Origin: Candidatus Poribacteria bacterium
Lineage (GTDB): Bacteria; Poribacteria; WGA-4E; PCPOR2b
Assembly (NCBI GenBank): GCA_022822785.1
Contig: JAJEAL010000008.1
Span: forward strand, 1 to 64,000
Direction of reading: 5' to 3'
Length of the DNA stretch: 64,000 nt
The translations under genes and the position numbers were made by a program. Positions 1-10,762 of the stretch are shown here, one piece after another; position 1 is the first letter of the stretch; each line of letters begins with the position of its first letter. The notes under the pieces are model-generated. The model had not been told where the DNA came from, ran no database searches, and worked only from the letters and a program-made list of their open reading frames with translations.

Positions 1-897
1 GACTGAACAGAGACGGGCCCTGATTGACCCCGACCACCCCCAATTAAGTATCCGTCGTCAGTGTCAGTTGCTTGGTTTTTCTCGGTCAACGCTCTACTAT
101 CAACCGGCTACCGAGTCAGCAGATAATTTGCATCTGATGCGTCTGATAGATAAGCAGTATCTGCAAACGCCGTTCTATGGGAGTCGTCGAATGACACACC
201 ATCTCAAGCGGCGTGGCTACCGTGTGAATCGCAAACGCATCCAGCGACTGATGCGTTTAATGGGTCTTGAGGCGATTTATCCTAAACCCAAACTCTCAAC
301 CACCCACAGCGAGCACCGGATTTACCCGTACCTATTACGGGATTATCAGGTGACCGCTTCCAATCAGGTCTGGTCGGCTGACATTACCTATATCCCGATG
401 GATAAAGGCTTTATGTATCTGGTGGCGATACTCGACTGGTATAGTCGTTACGTCATCGCTTGGAAGTTATCTAATAGGCTATCGGGGCAGTTCTGTCTTG
501 ACGCTTTGCATCACGCATTATCTGGGGCAACCCCTACTATCTTCAATACCGACCAAGGGGTCCAGTTTACTGCCAATGCTTTCACCGATACGGTTGAAGC
601 CGCGGGCAGTGCGATGAGTATGGACGGTGTAGGCAGAGTCATTGACAACATTTACATTGAGCGGTTTTGGCGAAGCGTCAAATATGAAGATGTTTATCCA
701 AAACTCTACCCAACGGCAAAAGCCTTGTTTGATGGATTAACTCATTATATCCGGTTCTATAATCACAAACGACCTCACCAGAGTCTCAATTATGCGACAC
801 CGGCTGAGGTGTATCTGAGCTAAAGAAGTACACAGCAACTCTCAATTATCTTACTTATTTTTCCAATATTTTGGCCTCGACAAGGGGTCCACTTTAC
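1..897 (+). mobile_element. IS3-family insertion sequence, 3' part
   Basis: This is the right-hand part of an IS3-family element whose left end lies outside the window. It holds the orfB transposase frame followed by about 70 bases of non-coding DNA. The junction with the interrupted host gene must lie just before base 899, because conserved TIR-type protein sequence resumes in frame there. The terminal inverted repeat cannot be verified without the left end, so the right boundary is uncertain by about 5 bases. Confidence 0.75.
2..823 (+). CDS. IS3-family transposase OrfB (5' end off window)
   Basis: DDE-type transposase that moves the element by a copy-out mechanism. The frame is open from base 2, encoding a stretch ending in SIRRQCQLLGFSRS that is typical of the OrfB N-terminus. 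The ATG at 68 is therefore internal, and the true start or frameshift site lies upstream of it. Counting from that ATG, the helix-turn-helix-like HTH_21 part covers residues 15-75 and the rve integrase core about 95-245. Catalytic residues are D105 (WSADITYIP), D162 (FNTDQGVQF) and E198 (DNIYIERFW), and 35 residues separate the last two, as expected. The C-terminal HKRPHQSLNYATPAEVY is canonical. It looks intact and possibly active. Confidence 0.93.
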   Translation, partial: TEQRRALIDPDHPQLSIRRQCQLLGFSRSTLYYQPATESADNLHLMRLIDKQYLQTPFYGSRRMTHHLKRRGYRVNRKRIQRLMRLMGLEAIYPKPKLSTTHSEHRIYPYLLRDYQVTASNQVWSADITYIPMDKGFMYLVAILDWYSRYVIAWKLSNRLSGQFCLDALHHALSGATPTIFNTDQGVQFTANAFTDTVEAAGSAMSMDGVGRVIDNIYIERFWRSVKYEDVYPKLYPTAKALFDGLTHYIRFYNHKRPHQSLNYATPAEVYLS

Positions 898-901
898 TTA
901 C

Positions 902-2161
902 GTGGGCAAGGCAAACGCCGGTGAAGGTGGTGTTGGCTACGAGCGGATGATTGTAAACGCGCAGCTTATTCAAGATTTGGGAACGAACAAATTCATTCCT
1001 GTAATTCGTCAGGCATCAGAACAAGAGAAAACGCCAACGTTTTTAGGAACACGAGTTTATATTGATTTTAGGAATGACAGTCAATTTGATTCGGAATTTG
1101 AGAAGTTGATTCACGAACTCCACCGAGTGCCAGTTGTAGAGAAGCCCCCTTTAGGAAAAAATCCGTTTGCTAAACTCCCCTCTGGACAAGAAGCACCGGC
1201 TGTTGAAGGGGCAGCCGCTCAACTGCCTGAGATCCCGGAGCAGGTTGAATCTGCAGACGAGGCTTACTCAGCAGCGGTTAAGCTAATCCGGGCAGAGGAT
1301 GAGTTTGGCTGGCGACAACTCGTCAAACGAATCAGGTCAAATGCCTTTAACTCTTTGGTACAACGACGACAAGAGGGGATGGCTGGAGAACCACCGAAAG
1401 ATAAAGAACTGGCTGTGGATGAAGCAGTTGAGATTATTTCCCCCTTGATTTCTGTTGCTTTAGCCGGGGTTGAATCTGGCAAGGAGCAATTTAGAGATCA
1501 GAAATCCATTCTTGATGATCTGCTCAATATTGCGGGATGGAATCGTACCGGTGGCTGGGGAGACATTCCTCGTGTACTAGGATATGTCTACCACAGTTTG
1601 CATGGGAGTCTTAGCCTTAGTACAAATCAGCTAGACCTCGCCCTGAGTCTTGCGCGAACTAAAATTCCTGACTTATATACAACGGCGCATCGTCACGTTT
1701 GGGAAGAGCATGAGCTTATGGGGTGGCCAAAATTGTTTGGTCCAAATTGTACGAAAGCTTGGAAGTACTTAGCGCAGGCTTGTGATAGATGGGAGTGGTT
1801 GGCTCCCATATTTGGAGATGAATCGGAATACCGGACTTCGCTGGTTGCATATTATATGGCACTGAGTATTCATGAATTAGCGTCAACCATTGATTCAGGT
1901 GAACAGAACACGGTCAAGAATGTCCCTTTGACTTTTATCTCCGAAGGACACGATATAAACCAACGCGCGGTTTCGCTATTGCTTCGTAATCCGGAAGCAC
2001 TCACGGAACTATGGGCCTGCTTAACTGTGACACGAGAACACATGGAAAACTCATGGAGAGATTGGATTCGCTCGTCTGAAGATTGGTTAAGAAGTGTCTA
2101 TAAATTCTCATTGGATATCAGAGTTTATCGTGAGAATTTCTCTAAGGTCTTGCAACCTTAG
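902..2161 (+). pseudogene. TIR/SEFIR-type effector protein, N-terminus removed by the IS
   Basis: The frame begins in the middle of a domain. The first residues, KANAGEGGVGYERMIVNAQL followed by a segment containing NKFIPVIRQ and then TRVYIDF, resemble the second half of prokaryotic TIR_2/SEFIR domains (family recognition from memory, no search run). The codons just upstream (Tyr-Val at 899-904) continue the conserved sequence, so the GTG at 902 is not a real start. The first half of the TIR domain should lie beyond the IS, left of the window. Residues about 105-419 form an unrecognised, mostly helical C-terminal region. Such proteins often act as NADase effectors in anti-phage defence. Here the catalytic half is separated, so function is probably lost. 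Confidence 0.6.
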
Positions 2162-2227
2162 TCAACGGTTGGTCAAAATCCCCTGGACAATCCTTCACGT
2201 TTACCTAAATCTAATCTAAATTGCTAG

Positions 2228-2741
2228 TTGATAAACCCAGTCAGAAACCAATGCAATAGTCTGCCCAAGAGGGCAACCACAAGGGATTGCCCCTACAGGA
2301 ACGAATCAAATGGCATACGATTCGACAGAATTGGGCAACCACGAGGGTTGCCCCTACAGAATCGACCAACCGTAGGGGTAGGTCTTGTGCCTGCCCTATA
2401 CACCAACGACCGCACAAGAGGACAACCACAAGGGTTACCCCTACAAAACCAATCCAACAAGAGGGCAACCACGATTGCCCCTACAGAATCGACTAACCGT
2501 AGGGGCAGGTCTTGTGTCTGCCCTATACACCAACGACCACATAAGAGGGCAAACACAAGGGTTGCCCCTACAAAACCAATCCAACAAGAGGGCTACCACG
2601 ATTGCCCCTACAGAATCGACTAACCGTAGGGGCAGGTCTTGTGCCTGCCCTATACACCAACAACCACATAAGAGGGCAACCACAAGGGTTGCCCCTACAA
2701 AATCAATCGATCACACAACCAAGAGGGTTGCCCCTACAGGA
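2228..2741. repeat. REP-like palindromic repeat cluster with a 127-bp tandem array
   Basis: The 580 bases between the TIR remnant and the next gene contain no credible gene. They hold copies of two short modules: a palindrome of the form GGGCAACCACAAGGGTTGCC followed by CCTACA, and TAGGGGCAGGTCTTGTGCCT followed by GCCC. From about 2359 to 2705 these modules are organised as a tandem array with a 127-bp period. Unit starts are at 2359, 2486 and 2613, and the third copy is partial. Open frames on both strands here are repeat translations such as VGAGLVPA and RATTRVAPT. Confidence 0.9.
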
Positions 2742-3500
2742 ATGAATCAGATGGCATACGATACGAAAATTCATCGCCGCCGGTCGCTGCGTTTAAAGGG
2801 ATATGATTATAGACACGTGGGTGCTTATTTTGTGACCATCGTTACTCAGGGTAGATCGTGTCTGTTTGGTGAAATTGTCGGTCAGGAGATGCAATTGAAT
2901 GAGGCAGGGGAGATGATTCGTACCGTTTGGGAGGCTTTACCCCAGCGGTTTCCGGGGATCGAGATTGAGGGGTTCGTGGTTATGCCGAATCATTTGCATG
3001 GTATCATCGCAATTCACCAACCCGTAGGGGTAGGTCTTGTGCCTGCCCAAGATACCAATAGCCCAGACCATGGGACAACCACGAGTCAATCCACAGAACC
3101 AACGGATGTAGGGGCAGGTCTTGTGCCTGCCCAAGATACCAACGACCACACAACCAAGCGGGCAACCACAAGGGTTGCCCCTACCAACCAAAATCCGGAC
3201 CGTGGGGTGGAAAACATGTCAACCGTACCCAACAGGGCAACCACAAGGGGTGCCCCTACATTGGGGGACGTAATCGGTGCGTACAAATCCTTGAGTACGG
3301 TAGAATATGTGCGGGGTGTGAAGACGATGGAATGGACACCGTTCCACGGGCGATTGTGGCAGCGAAACTATTACGAGCATATTGTGCGGCATGAAGACTC
3401 TTTGAGAGACCTACAGCAGTACATCCTTGACAATCCGGCCCGATGGGCTTTTGACAAAGAAAACCCGCTGGCTGAGAAACCAGAGATTGAGAAACCATGA
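2742..3500 (+). CDS. REP-associated tyrosine (Y1, HUH) transposase
   Basis: Single-stranded-DNA transposase of the IS200-like RAYT family, proteins thought to mobilise REP palindromes. The N-terminus ([20 protein letters not shown]) and the HUH motif in [11 protein letters not shown] (about residue 82) bind metal. The catalytic tyrosine lies in [14 protein letters not shown] near residue 210, followed by the [16 protein letters not shown] signature. About 85 residues (90-175), between the HUH motif and [10 protein letters not shown], are translated from the same palindromic repeats found upstream, kept in frame. Start is ATG 2742 or 2751; earlier in-frame starts lie inside the repeat array. 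The stop overlaps the hsdR start by ATGA. Confidence 0.85.
3010..3268. repeat. REP-like palindromes inside the RAYT coding sequence
   Basis: At least five copies of the two palindromic modules lie within the transposase frame: near 3025-3050, 3108-3135, 3160-3183 and 3233-3262, with a degenerate one near 3070. They encode peptides of the type [12 protein letters not shown] and RATTRVAPT. The frame stays open throughout. Confidence 0.85.
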
Positions 3501-6500
3501 ACGCTATTGCTGAATCCGATATCGAAGAAGCCGCGCTGGATTGGCTCGCTGAGCTAGGTTATACTGTTTTACACGGACCCGACATCGCCCCGGACGCCCC
3601 CGATGCAGAACGTTCCACCTACAGCGAAGTCATCTTAGAACGTCGTTTTCGGGATGCGGTTGCCCGCCTGAATCCACACATACCCACCGACGCACAAGAA
3701 GAAGCGATCCGAAAAGTGCTTTACCCGGATTCCCCCGCATTGATCCAGAACAACCGTGCATTTCACCAGATGCTGATCGACGGGATAGCGGTTGAGGCTC
3801 GGCAGTCGGACGGTACAATGCGCGGCGAGCAGGTGTGGTTAGTCGATTTTGATGCCCCTGAAAACAATGACTGGTTGGCGGTCAATCAGTTCACAGTGGT
3901 AGAGAACAGCGAACGCCGCCCGGATATCGCCCTGTTTATCAACGGGCTGCCCTTAGCTGTGATTGAGCTCAAAAACCCGACCGACGAGAAAGCCACCATT
4001 CTAACCGCATTTCGCCAAATCTGTACCTACAAGCAGGAAATCCCTTCGCTGTTCACCTATAACGAGACGATCGTCATTTCTGACGGGATAGAAGCACGCA
4101 TTGGATCTTTAACCGCAGATCAGGAATGGTTTCTGCCGTGGCGGACAATCGAGGGAGAGGACGAGGCACCGTCAACTGAATTAGAACTAGAGGTGTTGAT
4201 TAAGGGTATCTTTGAGAAGGGCAGATTTTTGAGCTACCTCAAACACTTCGTCGTCTTTGAGGAAACTGAGGGCGGGACGATAGCCAAAAAGATTGCCGGC
4301 TATCATCAATTCCACGCGGTGAACACGGCGGTTGATACGACGGTAGAAGCATCGCGCCCGGAAGGGGACAAGCAGTGCGGCGTTGTGTGGCATACGCAAG
4401 GTTCGGGCAAGAGTTTGACGATGGCTTTTTACGCCGGCAGCATCGCCCAACATCCGCAGATGGCAAACCCAACGGTAGTCGTTATCACCGACCGAAACGA
4501 CCTAGACGAGCAGCTGTTCGGTACATTTTCTCGGTGTAGTCAACTTTTGCGACAAGCACCGGTGCAAACAGGAGACAGAGGACACCTACGCGAACTCCTA
4601 ACGGTTGCCTCTGGTGGGGTGGTCTTTACCACGGTCCAAAAGTTTTTTCCAGAGGGGGATGAAACCCGTTTCCCCTTGCTATCCGATCGGCGGAACATTG
4701 TGGTTATTGCGGACGAGGCGCACCGCAGCCAGTACGACTTTATCAGCGGATTTGCCCGTCACATGCGGGATGCACTCCCCAACGCCTCCTTTATCGGTTT
4801 CACCGGCACGCCGATTGAGGCGACAGACCGCAACACCCGCGCGGTTTTTGGGGATTATATCAGCATCTACGATATACAACGTGCGGTTGAGGACGGTGCC
4901 ACCGTTCCGATCTACTACGAAGGCCGTCTCGCCAGCATTGAATTGGATGAGAATGAAAAGCCCCGCGTTGACCCGGACTTTGAGGAGGCGACTGAAGGGG
5001 AGGAGGTCGCACGCAGAGAGAGACTCAAGACCAAATGGGCGCAGCTTGAGGCATTGGTGGGAACGGAAAAGCGGTTAGGCCTCATCGCCGATGATATTGT
5101 CACACACTTTGAAGAACGGTTAGCAACGATAGATGGAAAGGCAATGGTTGTCTGCATGAGCAGACGTATTTGCATTGACCTTTACAACGCCCTTGTCGCA
5201 CGTCGTCCAGAGTGGCATAACGACGATGACACACAGGGAGAGATTAAGGTTGTGATGACAGGTTCGTCCGATGATGATCCGGCGTGGCAGGGGCATATTC
5301 GCAACAAGGCTCGGCGAGAAAAGATTGCGGCGCGATTCAAAAACCCCAGGGATCCGTTGAAAGTGGTGATTGTCCGCGATATGTGGCTCACCGGATTTGA
5401 CGCGCCCAGTCTTCATACCATGTATGTGGACAAGCCGATGCGTGGACATGGATTGATGCAGGCTATCGCTCGCGTCAATCGGGTGTTCGGCGACAAGCCG
5501 GGCGGTTTGGTTGTAGACTACATTGGGCTCGCCTACCATCTGAAACAGGCATTATCGAACTACACCGAAAACGGTGGAAAAGGGAGTACTGCCGTTGATC
5601 AAGCGGAAGCGGTCGCGGTGATGCAGGAAAAGTACGAGATCTGTTGTGGACTGTTTTACGGTTTCGATTGGTCGGCGTGGATCGATGGGAACGCCATAGG
5701 CCGCCTCAAACTGTTGCCATCGGCTCAAGAACACATCCTGAAACAGCAGGATGGCAAGGCTCGTTTACTAGAAACGGTTACCGCGCTTTCCAAAGCGTTT
5801 GCGCTAGCAGTGCCGCATGAGAAAACGATAGAAATTCGTGACGATGTCGCCTTTTTTCAGGCGGTGAGGGGTGTCTTAGCGAAACCGACGGCTACGGAAG
5901 AAACGCAGTCTGAGGCGACAGAGCAGACGATAAAACAGTTGGTATCCAGAGCGGTCGTCTCCGAAGGGGTGATTGACATTTTCGCAGCCGCGGGGTTGGA
6001 AAACCCCGATGTCTCGATTCTCTCCGACGAATTTCTCCTTGAAGTGCGGGATTTACCACATAAAAATGTGGCGGTTGAACTTTTAGAAAGGCTGCTCAAC
6101 GATGAGATTAGAACCCACTCCCGGAAAAATGTTGTACAAGGCCGCTCGTTTGCGGAGATGTTGGAACGCTCGATTCGGGTCTATCAGAATCGTACGGTTG
6201 CAGCGGCACAAGTAATCGAGGAGCTTATCGCGATTGCGAAAGAGATGCGTCAAGCACAAGACCGGGGTGAGGAACTAGGGCTTTCAGACGATGAGTTGGC
6301 ATTCTATGACGCGCTTGAGGTCAACGATAGTGCGGTTGAGGTGTTAGGGGACGAAACGCTGCGAACCATCGCGATTGAACTGGTCAACACTGTTCGACAG
6401 AATGTGAGCATTGACTGGACGTTACGGGAGAACGTCCGCGCGAAGCTGCGGGTGATGGTGAAGCGTGTTCTTCGCAGATACGGTTATCCGCCCGACAAAC

Positions 6501-6565
6501 AGGAGCAAGCCACCGCAACGGTCTTAGAACAAGCCGAGGCGTTGTGTGTGGATTGGGCGGCGTAA
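3497..6565 (+). CDS. hsdR: Type I restriction enzyme R subunit (HsdR)
   Basis: ATP-dependent translocase and nuclease subunit of a type I restriction complex; it needs HsdM and HsdS partners. At 1022 residues it is full length for the family. The PD-(D/E)XK nuclease is visible at about residues 140-160 ([11 protein letters not shown] then AVIELKNP). Helicase motifs follow: Walker [11 protein letters not shown] near residue 300, DEAH in [13 protein letters not shown] near 405, GFTGTPIE near 434, and [20 protein letters not shown] with IARVNR further on. Its ATG overlaps the stop of the transposase gene. No hsdM or hsdS is adjacent. The only related genes are the broken methyltransferase and hsdS fragment at 56.7-58.3 kb, on the other strand, with no evidence that they belong together. 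Intact but apparently orphan here. Confidence 0.92.
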
Positions 6566-8132: not shown

Positions 8133-10031
8133 TCAATTTTGTGGAGCGATTTGGGTGGATAATACGTCGATGAGTGCATCGAGATGGATGTGTCGGAAAA
8201 ACTCCGACAGTCGTTTCTGTCTTGGTTTGACTGGGAGCAAGATAAATTCTGAGCAGTGTTCTTGGACAGCTTCAAACACCTTGCGATAGGCTTGGCTTGT
8301 GGCGTATCCGACAATCAACGTATAGTGGTCGCGGTGCTGATCAAGATAGGCTTTGAACCGATTGGCGCCCAACTGTATCTGCGCGGTATTTCTCGGAGAT
8401 AGCTGGAAATCGTAGCGCACGACGGGATCTTCAGTTTCAAATTCTTCTGGTACTGGACCGTAGAGCCCGGAGAGCGTAATTTTGTGAATGACTTCTTGGT
8501 TCTTTCCGAAGGCATTTTGAAGTTTGGTACTGACGATTGTGTGTGTCCGTGAAAGCGAATACGGCTTTTTTCCGGCACAGGGAATTGTTAGCAGCACCCT
8601 TTTATCCGTCGGCGGTTTGTAATCTGTTGGGATCGAGAATGAATCGGGCGTATAGTCCAGTGAAATTGTCGGTTGTTCTTGCTGAAGGGATGAATCCGTC
8701 TCTTTTGCTGAAAAAAGTTCCAGTTGATCTGGGTTACGCTTGCTCCCCTGTCGGTTTTCGGGGGTGGAGCTGGCGATAACGGTTCTTGCTATCCGCTTGC
8801 CGAACGCTTTATCATGTTCTGTCAACCAGTCCACTGCATTCCGGATGCGTCGTCCACTCGCAGCGTGATGGACTAATTCTTCGAGTGCCGCATCGGCTTC
8901 AATAGCGTCCTTCATACGAGCAAGCAGCGCCGCTTCCAACTCAAAATTATGCAAGGCGATTGCCGCATAACATTCGCTCTTGTATTTTCCGGTCGATGTG
9001 CGTTTATAGCTTGCCTCCTCCATCAAGGTACGGTGCATCTCATCAAGGGACACCTCCCGACAGATACGGCAGGTGCAGGTCAGTTCGTCTAGTTCCATCA
9101 GTTTCCGTTTCGTTCGTGTCAATGGGTCCGCGTAGCTGAGACCGCGCGCTGCTTGAATATAGCTGGTACTGTCGAAGCTATCGACCCCCATATACGCCAG
9201 TATCGGTGTCAGCTCACCGGAGACGCCGAAGGCGTGGATAGGGGTGTGGTAACGTTCTGACTCTGGAATCCCTTTTTGCACGCCGCTAATCCGTTCGAGC
9301 ACTGCTGCATCCTGTTTCCCTCGCAGTGGCACCAAAGAGCCAACGGCAAGCCCAAATGAGGGGAGCACTCCCACAAGCCGGTCGAAAACCTGCTTGACAT
9401 AATTTTCAATATCCGATTGGGATTGACCGTGACAGCAGACATATAAGAAGGGTGGTTGTGCTTTGGCTGCAAGCAGTGTGGCTGCACGATAGGCGTTCTC
9501 CAAGCTGAGGTTCATCCGTTCTTCAGCTTCGGAGCGTTCTAGCCCCGGTGGCAGCGGATAGTCGAGGGATGCGATAATCTCGCCTCCAAAATCTTCCTGA
9601 AGCGCGAAAATATCATCGGCTTCGGTTTCCTTTTCGATTCCAAATTGCTTTAGGTCTAGCCCTGTTTTGTAGAGGAGCTTAAATCCGCCGGAGTCCAGAA
9701 ATAGTGGCGCATTATAGACTCCGTTTACCTCCTTATACCACTCACGCATTGTTTTTTGGCGCCACTTGGTTAAATGTTTTCCTTCAAACGGGAAGTCCAG
9801 AAAGTGCAGGACTTGGGATAACATCGGGACATCGTTCTTCATGAAATCCCGGAGCAGATATTTCCAGAGCCCTCCCCCACGTGGCGTGGAGCCGGTCATA
9901 AATGAAACCACCGGATACAGGCGTGGCGTTGATAGCGGTGATAGGACTTCACCATTTCGCTGCAAATGCAGTTCACCAATTCTGCCGTTTTTTCTTTGAA
10001 CGGTTGTATGGTAGGTTGGGATTGTGGTCAT
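8133..10031 (-). CDS. TGT-like transglycosylase fused to an ArcS-signature domain (DpdA/TgtA-like)
   Basis: 632-residue protein of the tRNA-guanine transglycosylase superfamily, enzymes that swap guanine for a 7-deazaguanine base. Residues 1-400 show the TGT barrel: general-acid D113 in FLDSGGFK, DYPLPPG near 157, FGVSGE near 268, and the nucleophile-position D287 in DSFDSTSY followed by AARG. Zinc ligands C319, C321, C324 and H361 (CTCRIC, then LHNFELEA) are present. Residues about 475-600 form a second domain with PCAGKKPYSLSRTH (484-497), which fits the archaeosine synthase pattern PC-x3-KPY-x2-S-x2-H. Start 10031 is chosen because the longer frame to 10124 runs through a repeat. It may modify DNA (DpdA-like) or tRNA. 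No other deazaguanine genes are nearby. Confidence 0.8.
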   Translation of the reverse strand: MTTIPTYHTTVQRKNGRIGELHLQRNGEVLSPLSTPRLYPVVSFMTGSTPRGGGLWKYLLRDFMKNDVPMLSQVLHFLDFPFEGKHLTKWRQKTMREWYKEVNGVYNAPLFLDSGGFKLLYKTGLDLKQFGIEKETEADDIFALQEDFGGEIIASLDYPLPPGLERSEAEERMNLSLENAYRAATLLAAKAQPPFLYVCCHGQSQSDIENYVKQVFDRLVGVLPSFGLAVGSLVPLRGKQDAAVLERISGVQKGIPESERYHTPIHAFGVSGELTPILAYMGVDSFDSTSYIQAARGLSYADPLTRTKRKLMELDELTCTCRICREVSLDEMHRTLMEEASYKRTSTGKYKSECYAAIALHNFELEAALLARMKDAIEADAALEELVHHAASGRRIRNAVDWLTEHDKAFGKRIARTVIASSTPENRQGSKRNPDQLELFSAKETDSSLQQEQPTISLDYTPDSFSIPTDYKPPTDKRVLLTIPCAGKKPYSLSRTHTIVSTKLQNAFGKNQEVIHKITLSGLYGPVPEEFETEDPVVRYDFQLSPRNTAQIQLGANRFKAYLDQHRDHYTLIVGYATSQAYRKVFEAVQEHCSEFILLPVKPRQKRLSEFFRHIHLDALIDVLSTQIAPQN

Positions 10032-10079
10032 AGTGGGATGCTTTTCCGAGCTTGTTTGGTTAAAACGAATTGAAAACAG

Positions 10080-10265
10080 ATAGAAGTTACGCGGTTGAAC
10101 GTCAAAGTCCTGTAGTTTGGCCATTCATCACTGCATGATACCATTCTCAACGCGCGATAAATCGGGCAATTGCAGTTAGAGGGTAGGTTGATAGTCAGGT
10201 GATTTATCGCCCATTTGGACAAACAATGAATTGCACCACTACAAACTCAAGTGTATAATTCCTAT
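10080..10265. repeat. MITE-like repeat, TTACGC family (family C)
   Basis: Starts with TAGAAGTTACGCGGTTGAAC and ends near CACTACAAACTCAAGTGTAT, an inverted, diverged copy of the same end. The interior has GGGCGATAAAT-type and AATGAATTG modules seen at 18.3, 26.1, 31.0 and 58.4 kb. It covers the upstream region of the transglycosylase gene and probably carries or displaces its promoter. Confidence 0.75.
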
Positions 10266-10267
10266 TT

Positions 10268-10407
10268 ATGGTGAATTCTATAATTACTTGTATATCTTCG
10301 ATACACAGCCACCCCCCTAAATCCCCCGCAAGCGGGGGACTTTGGAAACTTCGCTAGGGTCGGAGTTATTGGTAATGTTTACTTATTTCTCTAATTCACC
10401 ATACTTA
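10268..10407. repeat. TA-flanked MITE (family B) with CCCCTAAATCCCCC cargo
   Basis: Begins TATGGTGAATTCTATAATTA and ends TCTCTAATTCACCATA. The ends form an inverted repeat of about 25 bases flanked by TA, as in IS630/mariner-derived MITEs. The cargo is a palindrome of the CCCCCTAAATCCCCC...GCGGGGGACTT type. The right end supplies the last three codons and stop of the neighbouring minus-strand gene. Confidence 0.78.
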
Positions 10408-10762
10408 AGATTTCTGACAAAGGGACTAGTACCAATTCAGCTGTCTGCCCATCTCCACCACGTTTGGTCCCATTCAGTTTTTTATATTCATTCACTATTT
10501 TTTTTAATCTCTCTGTCTGTATGAAGATAATAACCTCATCGTTGTATTCATCGCCTGACAATACAAAAGCCCACCAGTCAGCGGTGGTTGCCATTAAGCC
10601 ACTTGGTTCATCTTTATAAGATATTTCTACTGCTATGTTTCCTGTCTGCGAAACTAGTCGATCTCGTTTGACCTCAATGGTAAAAGGAGAAGATGAAAGT
10701 AAACTTCTAACCAGCTCTTCTCCAGCTTTGCCAAATTCCAAATCATGTGTAAAGTTAACCAT
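10391..10762 (-). CDS. Small PD-(D/E)XK nuclease-like protein
   Basis: 123-residue protein of unknown role. The pattern GKAGEELVRSLL, then FTIEVKRDRL, then TGNIAVEISY with PSGLMATTADWWAF resembles small phage-associated PD-(D/E)XK nucleases: an N-terminal Glu helix, a D/E-V-K strand and a downstream strand with acidic residues. This is pattern recognition, not a search result. A good ribosome site (AAAGGGG) precedes the ATG. The C-terminal Met-Val-Asn and stop lie in a MITE end, so the native C-terminus may have been replaced. It is separated from its neighbours by repeats. An immunity or DNA-repair role is possible. Confidence 0.55.
   Translation of the reverse strand: MVNFTHDLEFGKAGEELVRSLLSSSPFTIEVKRDRLVSQTGNIAVEISYKDEPSGLMATTADWWAFVLSGDEYNDEVIIFIQTERLKKIVNEYKKLNGTKRGGDGQTAELVLVPLSEILSMVN

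Follow-up and report, generated by a model that had tools for sequence, protein, structure and literature searches.

The closest described systems are those of ArcS and TgtA, the phage DpdA2 proteins, the Dpd islands and the BREX-related HerA systems. ArcS from Thermococcus adds lysine, and RaSEA is needed for the release of G+; the enzyme of Methanocaldococcus works directly with ammonia, asparagine or glutamine (PMC11298593). DNA of Vibrio phage nt-1 contains dPreQ0 plus some dG+ and dADG (PMC6884629), and the DpdA2 of this phage (YP_008125322) is located in a preQ0 gene cluster. DUF6884 is the domain reported for DpdC of the Dpd islands (PMC11888242). Modification of DNA with dG+ is known from phages, and bacterial islands make dPreQ0 and dADG.

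We analysed a stretch of 64,000 nucleotides (the window) from Candidatus Poribacteria, a sponge-associated type of bacterium, and focused on a gene that encodes a TGT domain followed by the ArcS core domain DUF5591 (Table 1). A preliminary description of the window had claimed that the two are joined in one 632-residue chain, and the profile searches that it proposed bear this out. On the Pfam models the protein scored 57.8 bits for PF01702 (gathering cut-off 26.3) and 58.4 bits for PF17884 (gathering cut-off 26), and it also passed the TGT superfamily profile tgt_general (60.2 bits, cut-off 47.6). The fusion of a TGT with an ArcS core is real. No PUA domain was detected in it by profile searches that considered hits up to E 10. 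The reading frame is open to position 10124 (8133-10124, 663 residues). Since the homologues start near residue 1 of the 632-residue version, the start at 10031 is likelier, and residue numbers refer to this version.

Table 1. Coordinates of the features discussed (positions in the window unless a contig is named).
Feature	Position	Strand	Basis or remark
TGT-DUF5591 fusion gene	8133-10031	-	632 aa
TGT base-exchange domain	8868-9716	-	PF01702 match, E about 1.2e-15 to 1.3e-15; fold like TgtA 1iq8
DUF5591 (ArcS core) domain	8247-8627	-	PF17884 match, E 9.8e-16
D113, general acid/base position, DSGGF motif	9693-9695	-	invariant in 35 relatives
D287, nucleophile position, DSFDS motif	9171-9173	-	invariant in 35 relatives
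H201-G202, HG in place of the QG of tRNA TGTs	9426-9431	-	motif comparison
Zinc site C319/C321/C324...H361	8949-9077	-	alignments of relatives
ArcS signature PC-x3-KPY-x2-S-x2-H, residues 484-497, PCAGKKPYSLSRTH	8541-8582	-	alignment
123-aa ORF, PHROG 13596	10391-10762	-	upstream of the fusion; in relatives this position is taken by restriction-modification genes
HsdR-like type I restriction subunit	3497-6565	+	nearly full length
371-aa ORF	2385-3500		weak Y1-transposase match; overlaps the HsdR-like gene by 4 bases
bSEFIR defence-type protein	902-2161	+	PADLOC, E 2.9e-32
rve-type transposase	68-823		near the bSEFIR gene
Second deazaguanine-type cluster, same genome	G000:C67 (L007), 833-5779	-	
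Further DUF6884 protein, same genome	G000:C88:114127-114522		148-aa open frame
Fusion relative L032	G048:C1:3513572-3515511		broken into two reading frames

Across 35 fusion relatives, D113, D287, C319, C321 and H361 of the TGT domain and P484, C485, K489, P490, Y491 and S494 of the ArcS signature are invariant, and C324 and H497 are conserved in at least 90%. Every position that the preliminary description had assigned to the two Asp residues, the four zinc ligands and the signature proved correct. In alignments the fusion has the catalytic Asp pair and the zinc ligands of TgtA, and its pocket sequence GSLVPL is like the VVPL preQ0 pocket of archaeal TgtA and unlike the bacterial preQ1-type GGLSVGE. 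His266, invariant in the fusion relatives, is the counterpart of H196 in 9g DpdA but is not diagnostic of DpdA because TgtA carries this His as well. The base-contacting Gln of tRNA TGTs is replaced by His in every fusion. A pattern search located the resulting HG motif in all fusions, in haloarchaeal TGT2 and in phage nt-1 DpdA2, and the QG motif in TgtA and nine of ten Tgt sequences, the tenth of which reads VQG in the alignment.

Comparison of the fusion with its nearest relative gave dN 0.08 and dS 0.77, with a dN/dS of about 0.1 in both domains and in the whole protein; both domains are under purifying selection. The structure prediction suggested in the preliminary description was carried out with AlphaFold2 and gave a confident model (pLDDT 84, pTM 0.79), and the best PDB matches of the model in Foldseek were archaeal TgtA (1iq8, E 8e-19) and the Zymomonas TGT. 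For the C-terminal domain alone, the sole significant PDB fold match was AF0587 (2q07, E 1.6e-6). Phage nt-1 DpdA2 was the second-best viral fold match (E 2.7e-9), and viral YaaA and DUF6884 folds were also among the viral matches.

Orthology of the fusion with ArcS, TgtA or DpdA was rejected, as every score fell under the curated cut-off: 96.2 bits against the ArcS equivalog NF040592 (cut-off 440; the true haloarchaeal ArcS of Salinibaculum reaches 844 bits), 84.6 bits against the TgtA equivalog TIGR00432 (cut-off 350) and 23 bits against the DpdA equivalog NF041059 (cut-off 200). The profile libraries used hold no curated model of DpdA2, for which the comparison consists of a score of 22.7 bits, the HG motif and the fold match. 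The relationship to DpdA2 is remote; judged by its scores, the TGT domain lies nearer to tRNA TgtA than to DpdA2.

The fusion is encoded by 18 of the 85 poribacterial genomes, mostly near full length and with a patchy occurrence even inside one genus; this recurrence, together with the low dN/dS, shows that it is not a chance product. The fusion is confined neither to the window nor to bacteria. Besides other Poribacteria, relatives are carried by cyanobacteria, Thermogemmatispora and another Chloroflexi genome (41-45% identity) and by haloarchaea (32-36% identity, some on plasmids). The poribacterial fusions are chromosomal in complete assemblies. The gene can be lost, as illustrated by the relative in G048, which is split into two frames. 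In the tree the fusions form one group beside short haloarchaeal TGT2 and away from TgtA, ArcS and Tgt, with weak support for the fusion group (63/52). No homologue by sequence was found in 50,697 phage records or in two viral-contig scans, on which grounds a phage or viral origin was rejected, and the DUF5591 profile had no match in phage nt-1.

The neighbourhoods of the relatives differ between lineages. In cyanobacteria, seven of eight fusion loci have a gene for DUF262/GmrSD_N and one for a MAE_28990 HEPN protein directly or closely downstream; the eighth is on a contig of <5 kb. The remaining flanks are mostly unshared or unrelated. In a published operon this HEPN family is accompanied by a DNA methylase and a ParB nuclease (PMC3710099), so the cyanobacterial fusion stands in the place of the methylase. 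A DpdJ-like helicase adjoins the fusion in two cyanobacterial loci (L049 and L051), and one of these two helicases has a homologue in Thermogemmatispora. In haloarchaea, 11 of 15 fusion loci have, within about 10 kb, the GHKL ATPase that belongs to a DUF6884-TGT2-GHKL cassette. Restriction or DNA-methylase genes lie upstream of the fusion in six poribacterial loci (raw count): an N6/N4 MTase in L019, an MTase with a MutH-like gene in L020, a type II REase with a D12 MTase in L025, MutH-like and Mrr genes in L027, an Eco57I-type gene with a PLD-helicase in L029, and an Mrr gene in L030 that was assigned by clustering with L027. Some poribacterial fusions are surrounded by ordinary metabolic genes. 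DpdJ-like helicases and DUF6884 were the only Dpd-type genes near some of the relatives, and a full dpdD-K operon was not seen.

Two further observations concern these neighbourhoods. The haloarchaeal cassette (L004, L056-L071) recurs beside the fusion in either orientation, with a DUF6884 gene, a 414-aa TGT2 and a GHKL ATPase of about 520 aa, and is a candidate for an unlisted deazaguanine restriction system. In nine poribacterial loci (L021, L025-L032), some of which differ in their other flanks, the fusion is followed directly or at a short distance by a gene for an iron-containing alcohol dehydrogenase; a functional link to this enzyme, or to the Gfo/Idh/MocA oxidoreductase that adjoins the fusion in Poribacteria, was rejected as unexplained and inconsistent between loci.

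Within the window, profile searches detected no DpdB, DpdC or dpd-type restriction operon adjoining the fusion gene, and there is no certain defence partner. The statement that the gene stands alone without que or dpd genes holds for the window but not for the genome, which has QueC, a canonical Tgt and a second TGT-like gene. The preliminary description placed the gene among several broken restriction and effector genes; the neighbouring HsdR, which is nearly full length, is not evidently broken. By eye, the 123-aa protein encoded upstream contains a possible PD-(D/E)xK-like pattern, GNIAVEISYK; this ORF is at most a putative part of the fusion's system. Elsewhere in the genome, on another contig, the C67 cluster starts with the gene of a TGT-like protein of 359 aa, which overlaps a gene of NurA type; HerA and DUF6884 genes follow. 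A TGT 56% identical to its TGT-like protein is found on a plasmid of Aulosira laxa (L119), where its neighbours are a gene annotated as an exonuclease and a large one that is LmuB/DndD-like.

QueC was found in all 16 fusion carriers tested, the poribacterial genome itself and 15 others. Imported or diet-derived preQ precursors, as had been supposed, are thus unneeded, and import as a requirement was rejected. Every carrier scanned has a separate tRNA enzyme, either a canonical Tgt (the genome itself and ten bacterial carriers) or TgtA (five haloarchaeal carriers), and in Salinibaculum the fusion occurs together with TgtA (618 bits) and with ArcS (844 bits). The tRNA work is therefore covered already. 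The fusion was rejected as the canonical queuosine Tgt, since that gene exists separately in its genome. RaSEA (TIGR01210) was detected in none of 11 bacterial carriers and in all five haloarchaeal carriers; its absence led us to reject RaSEA-dependent archaeosine formation in the bacteria.

Deazaguanine modification of a nucleic acid is the best reading of the fusion. Of the undescribed DNA- or tRNA-modification system envisaged in the preliminary description, this part stands, and the choice narrows towards DNA, with tRNA disfavoured. The evidence leans this way because restriction-type neighbours occur in three lineages, tRNA TGTs are encoded separately (TgtA plus ArcS in haloarchaea), the PUA domain is absent and the change from QG to HG is common to phage DpdA2; gene context and one motif are thus what point to DNA as the target. 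We consider it probable that the fusion is a one-chain, two-step DNA modifier, which would exchange guanine for preQ0, convert the nitrile and so mark and shield self DNA. By analogy with the TGT family, D287 of the DpdA2-like TGT domain would attack C1' of the target deoxyguanosine, guanine would leave and preQ0 would enter. The preQ0 would be supplied by the cell's own FolE/QueD/QueE/QueC route, of which QueC is the enzyme that was searched for and found. The PC-x3-KPY-x2-S-x2-H site of the ArcS core would then add to the nitrile group that the inserted preQ0 carries. The product would be either the amidine dG+ (deoxyarchaeosine) or a preQ0-lysine adduct, with the amide as a less likely outcome; given that RaSEA is lacking in the bacterial carriers, their end product would be dG+ formed directly, preQ0-Lys or, again less likely, the amide. 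A positively charged or bulky base may mark self DNA and block restriction, and in many relatives the adjoining nuclease module presumably attacks unmarked DNA. Since no certain partner is left in the window, the fusion there is probably a solitary protective modification. No recognised DNA-binding domain was predicted in the protein.

The scores of the TGT domain, 84.6 bits against tRNA TgtA (100-110 bits in reverse) and 23 bits against DpdA, would also suit an enzyme that modifies RNA, and the substrates of Thermococcus ArcS include preQ0 nucleosides and fragments of RNA (PMC11298593). The fusion could then be a bacterial one-chain archaeosine-type enzyme whose target for preQ0 or a derivative is tRNA, in the D-loop or elsewhere, or the RNA of phages. 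Such a role is decidedly unlikely, however, for a protein that has no PUA domain, carries HG instead of QG, shares the genome of each scanned carrier with a separate Tgt or TgtA and that of Salinibaculum with a separate ArcS too, and combines restriction-type neighbours with a patchy distribution. The patchy occurrence would also suit a counter-defence or selfish-element enzyme that protects the mobile DNA on which it resides and plays no part in host defence; the plasmid copies and the split reading frame in G048 are consistent with this as well. Chromosomal location in the complete poribacterial assemblies, the conserved nuclease partners in cyanobacteria and the lack of homologues in phage records or viral contigs make this reading very improbable.

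A different question is whether, with DNA as the target, the C-terminal domain might act as a nitrile hydrolase in the manner of DpdC, with the amide (dADG) as its product in place of an amidine or a lysine adduct. DUF6884 proteins score weakly against the DUF5591 profile (E 0.0024), the two profiles can be weakly aligned, and the viral fold matches include YaaA and DUF6884. This was not accepted as homology between DUF5591 and DUF6884. RaSEA, which the lysine route to G+ requires, is missing in 11 of 11 bacterial carriers, in keeping with an amide. Against this, the fusion keeps the full ArcS signature, of which no more than an SCS...K remnant is left in the DUF6884 set, and haloarchaeal carriers hold both types side by side; we regard the amide as unlikely.

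Returning to the two-step modification of DNA, we tentatively propose, with less than even confidence, that chromosomal DNA of haloarchaea, and of bacteria without the help of RaSEA, receives dG+ or a hypermodified preQ0-lysine base from a single polypeptide, and that this polypeptide is the modification half of a family of restriction systems whose nuclease modules are interchangeable (DUF262+HEPN, DpdJ-like, DUF6884+TGT2+GHKL). If true, archaeosine-type marking of DNA would be extended, by an enzyme that performs both steps in a single chain, to the cellular genomes of Poribacteria, cyanobacteria, Chloroflexi and haloarchaea, and DUF262/HEPN restriction operons would gain a modification half other than a methylase. 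The fusion would then also offer a simple one-gene test of ArcS chemistry on DNA.

Like ArcS/TgtA2, the fusion has a TGT-like domain followed by DUF5591 with its signature kept, but the TGT residues that are degenerate in ArcS are intact, the C-terminal PUA is absent whereas haloarchaeal ArcS gives PUA-type matches, and the bacterial carriers lack RaSEA, the partner in the Thermococcus-type route. With TgtA it shares the TGT fold (best PDB fold 1iq8), the catalytic Asp pair, the zinc site and the VPL preQ0 pocket, and differs in having HG instead of QG, no PUA and an additional DUF5591. Phage nt-1 DpdA2 is similar in its HG-x4-D motif, DSGG and fold; in contrast to the fusion it is viral, reaches just 22.7 bits to the TGT profile and has no fused DUF5591. 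The Dpd islands (DpdA-DpdK) likewise combine a TGT with a nitrile-modifying partner (DpdC, DUF6884), and a DpdJ-like helicase adjoins two of the cyanobacterial fusions, but DpdA and DpdC are separate there and a single fusion here. In the BREX-related HerA systems a TGT has been proposed to mark DNA within a defence cluster (PMC12839542); these have other partners and no ArcS domain, and are nearer to the C67 cluster of the same genome, which resembles their TGT-HerA arrangement.
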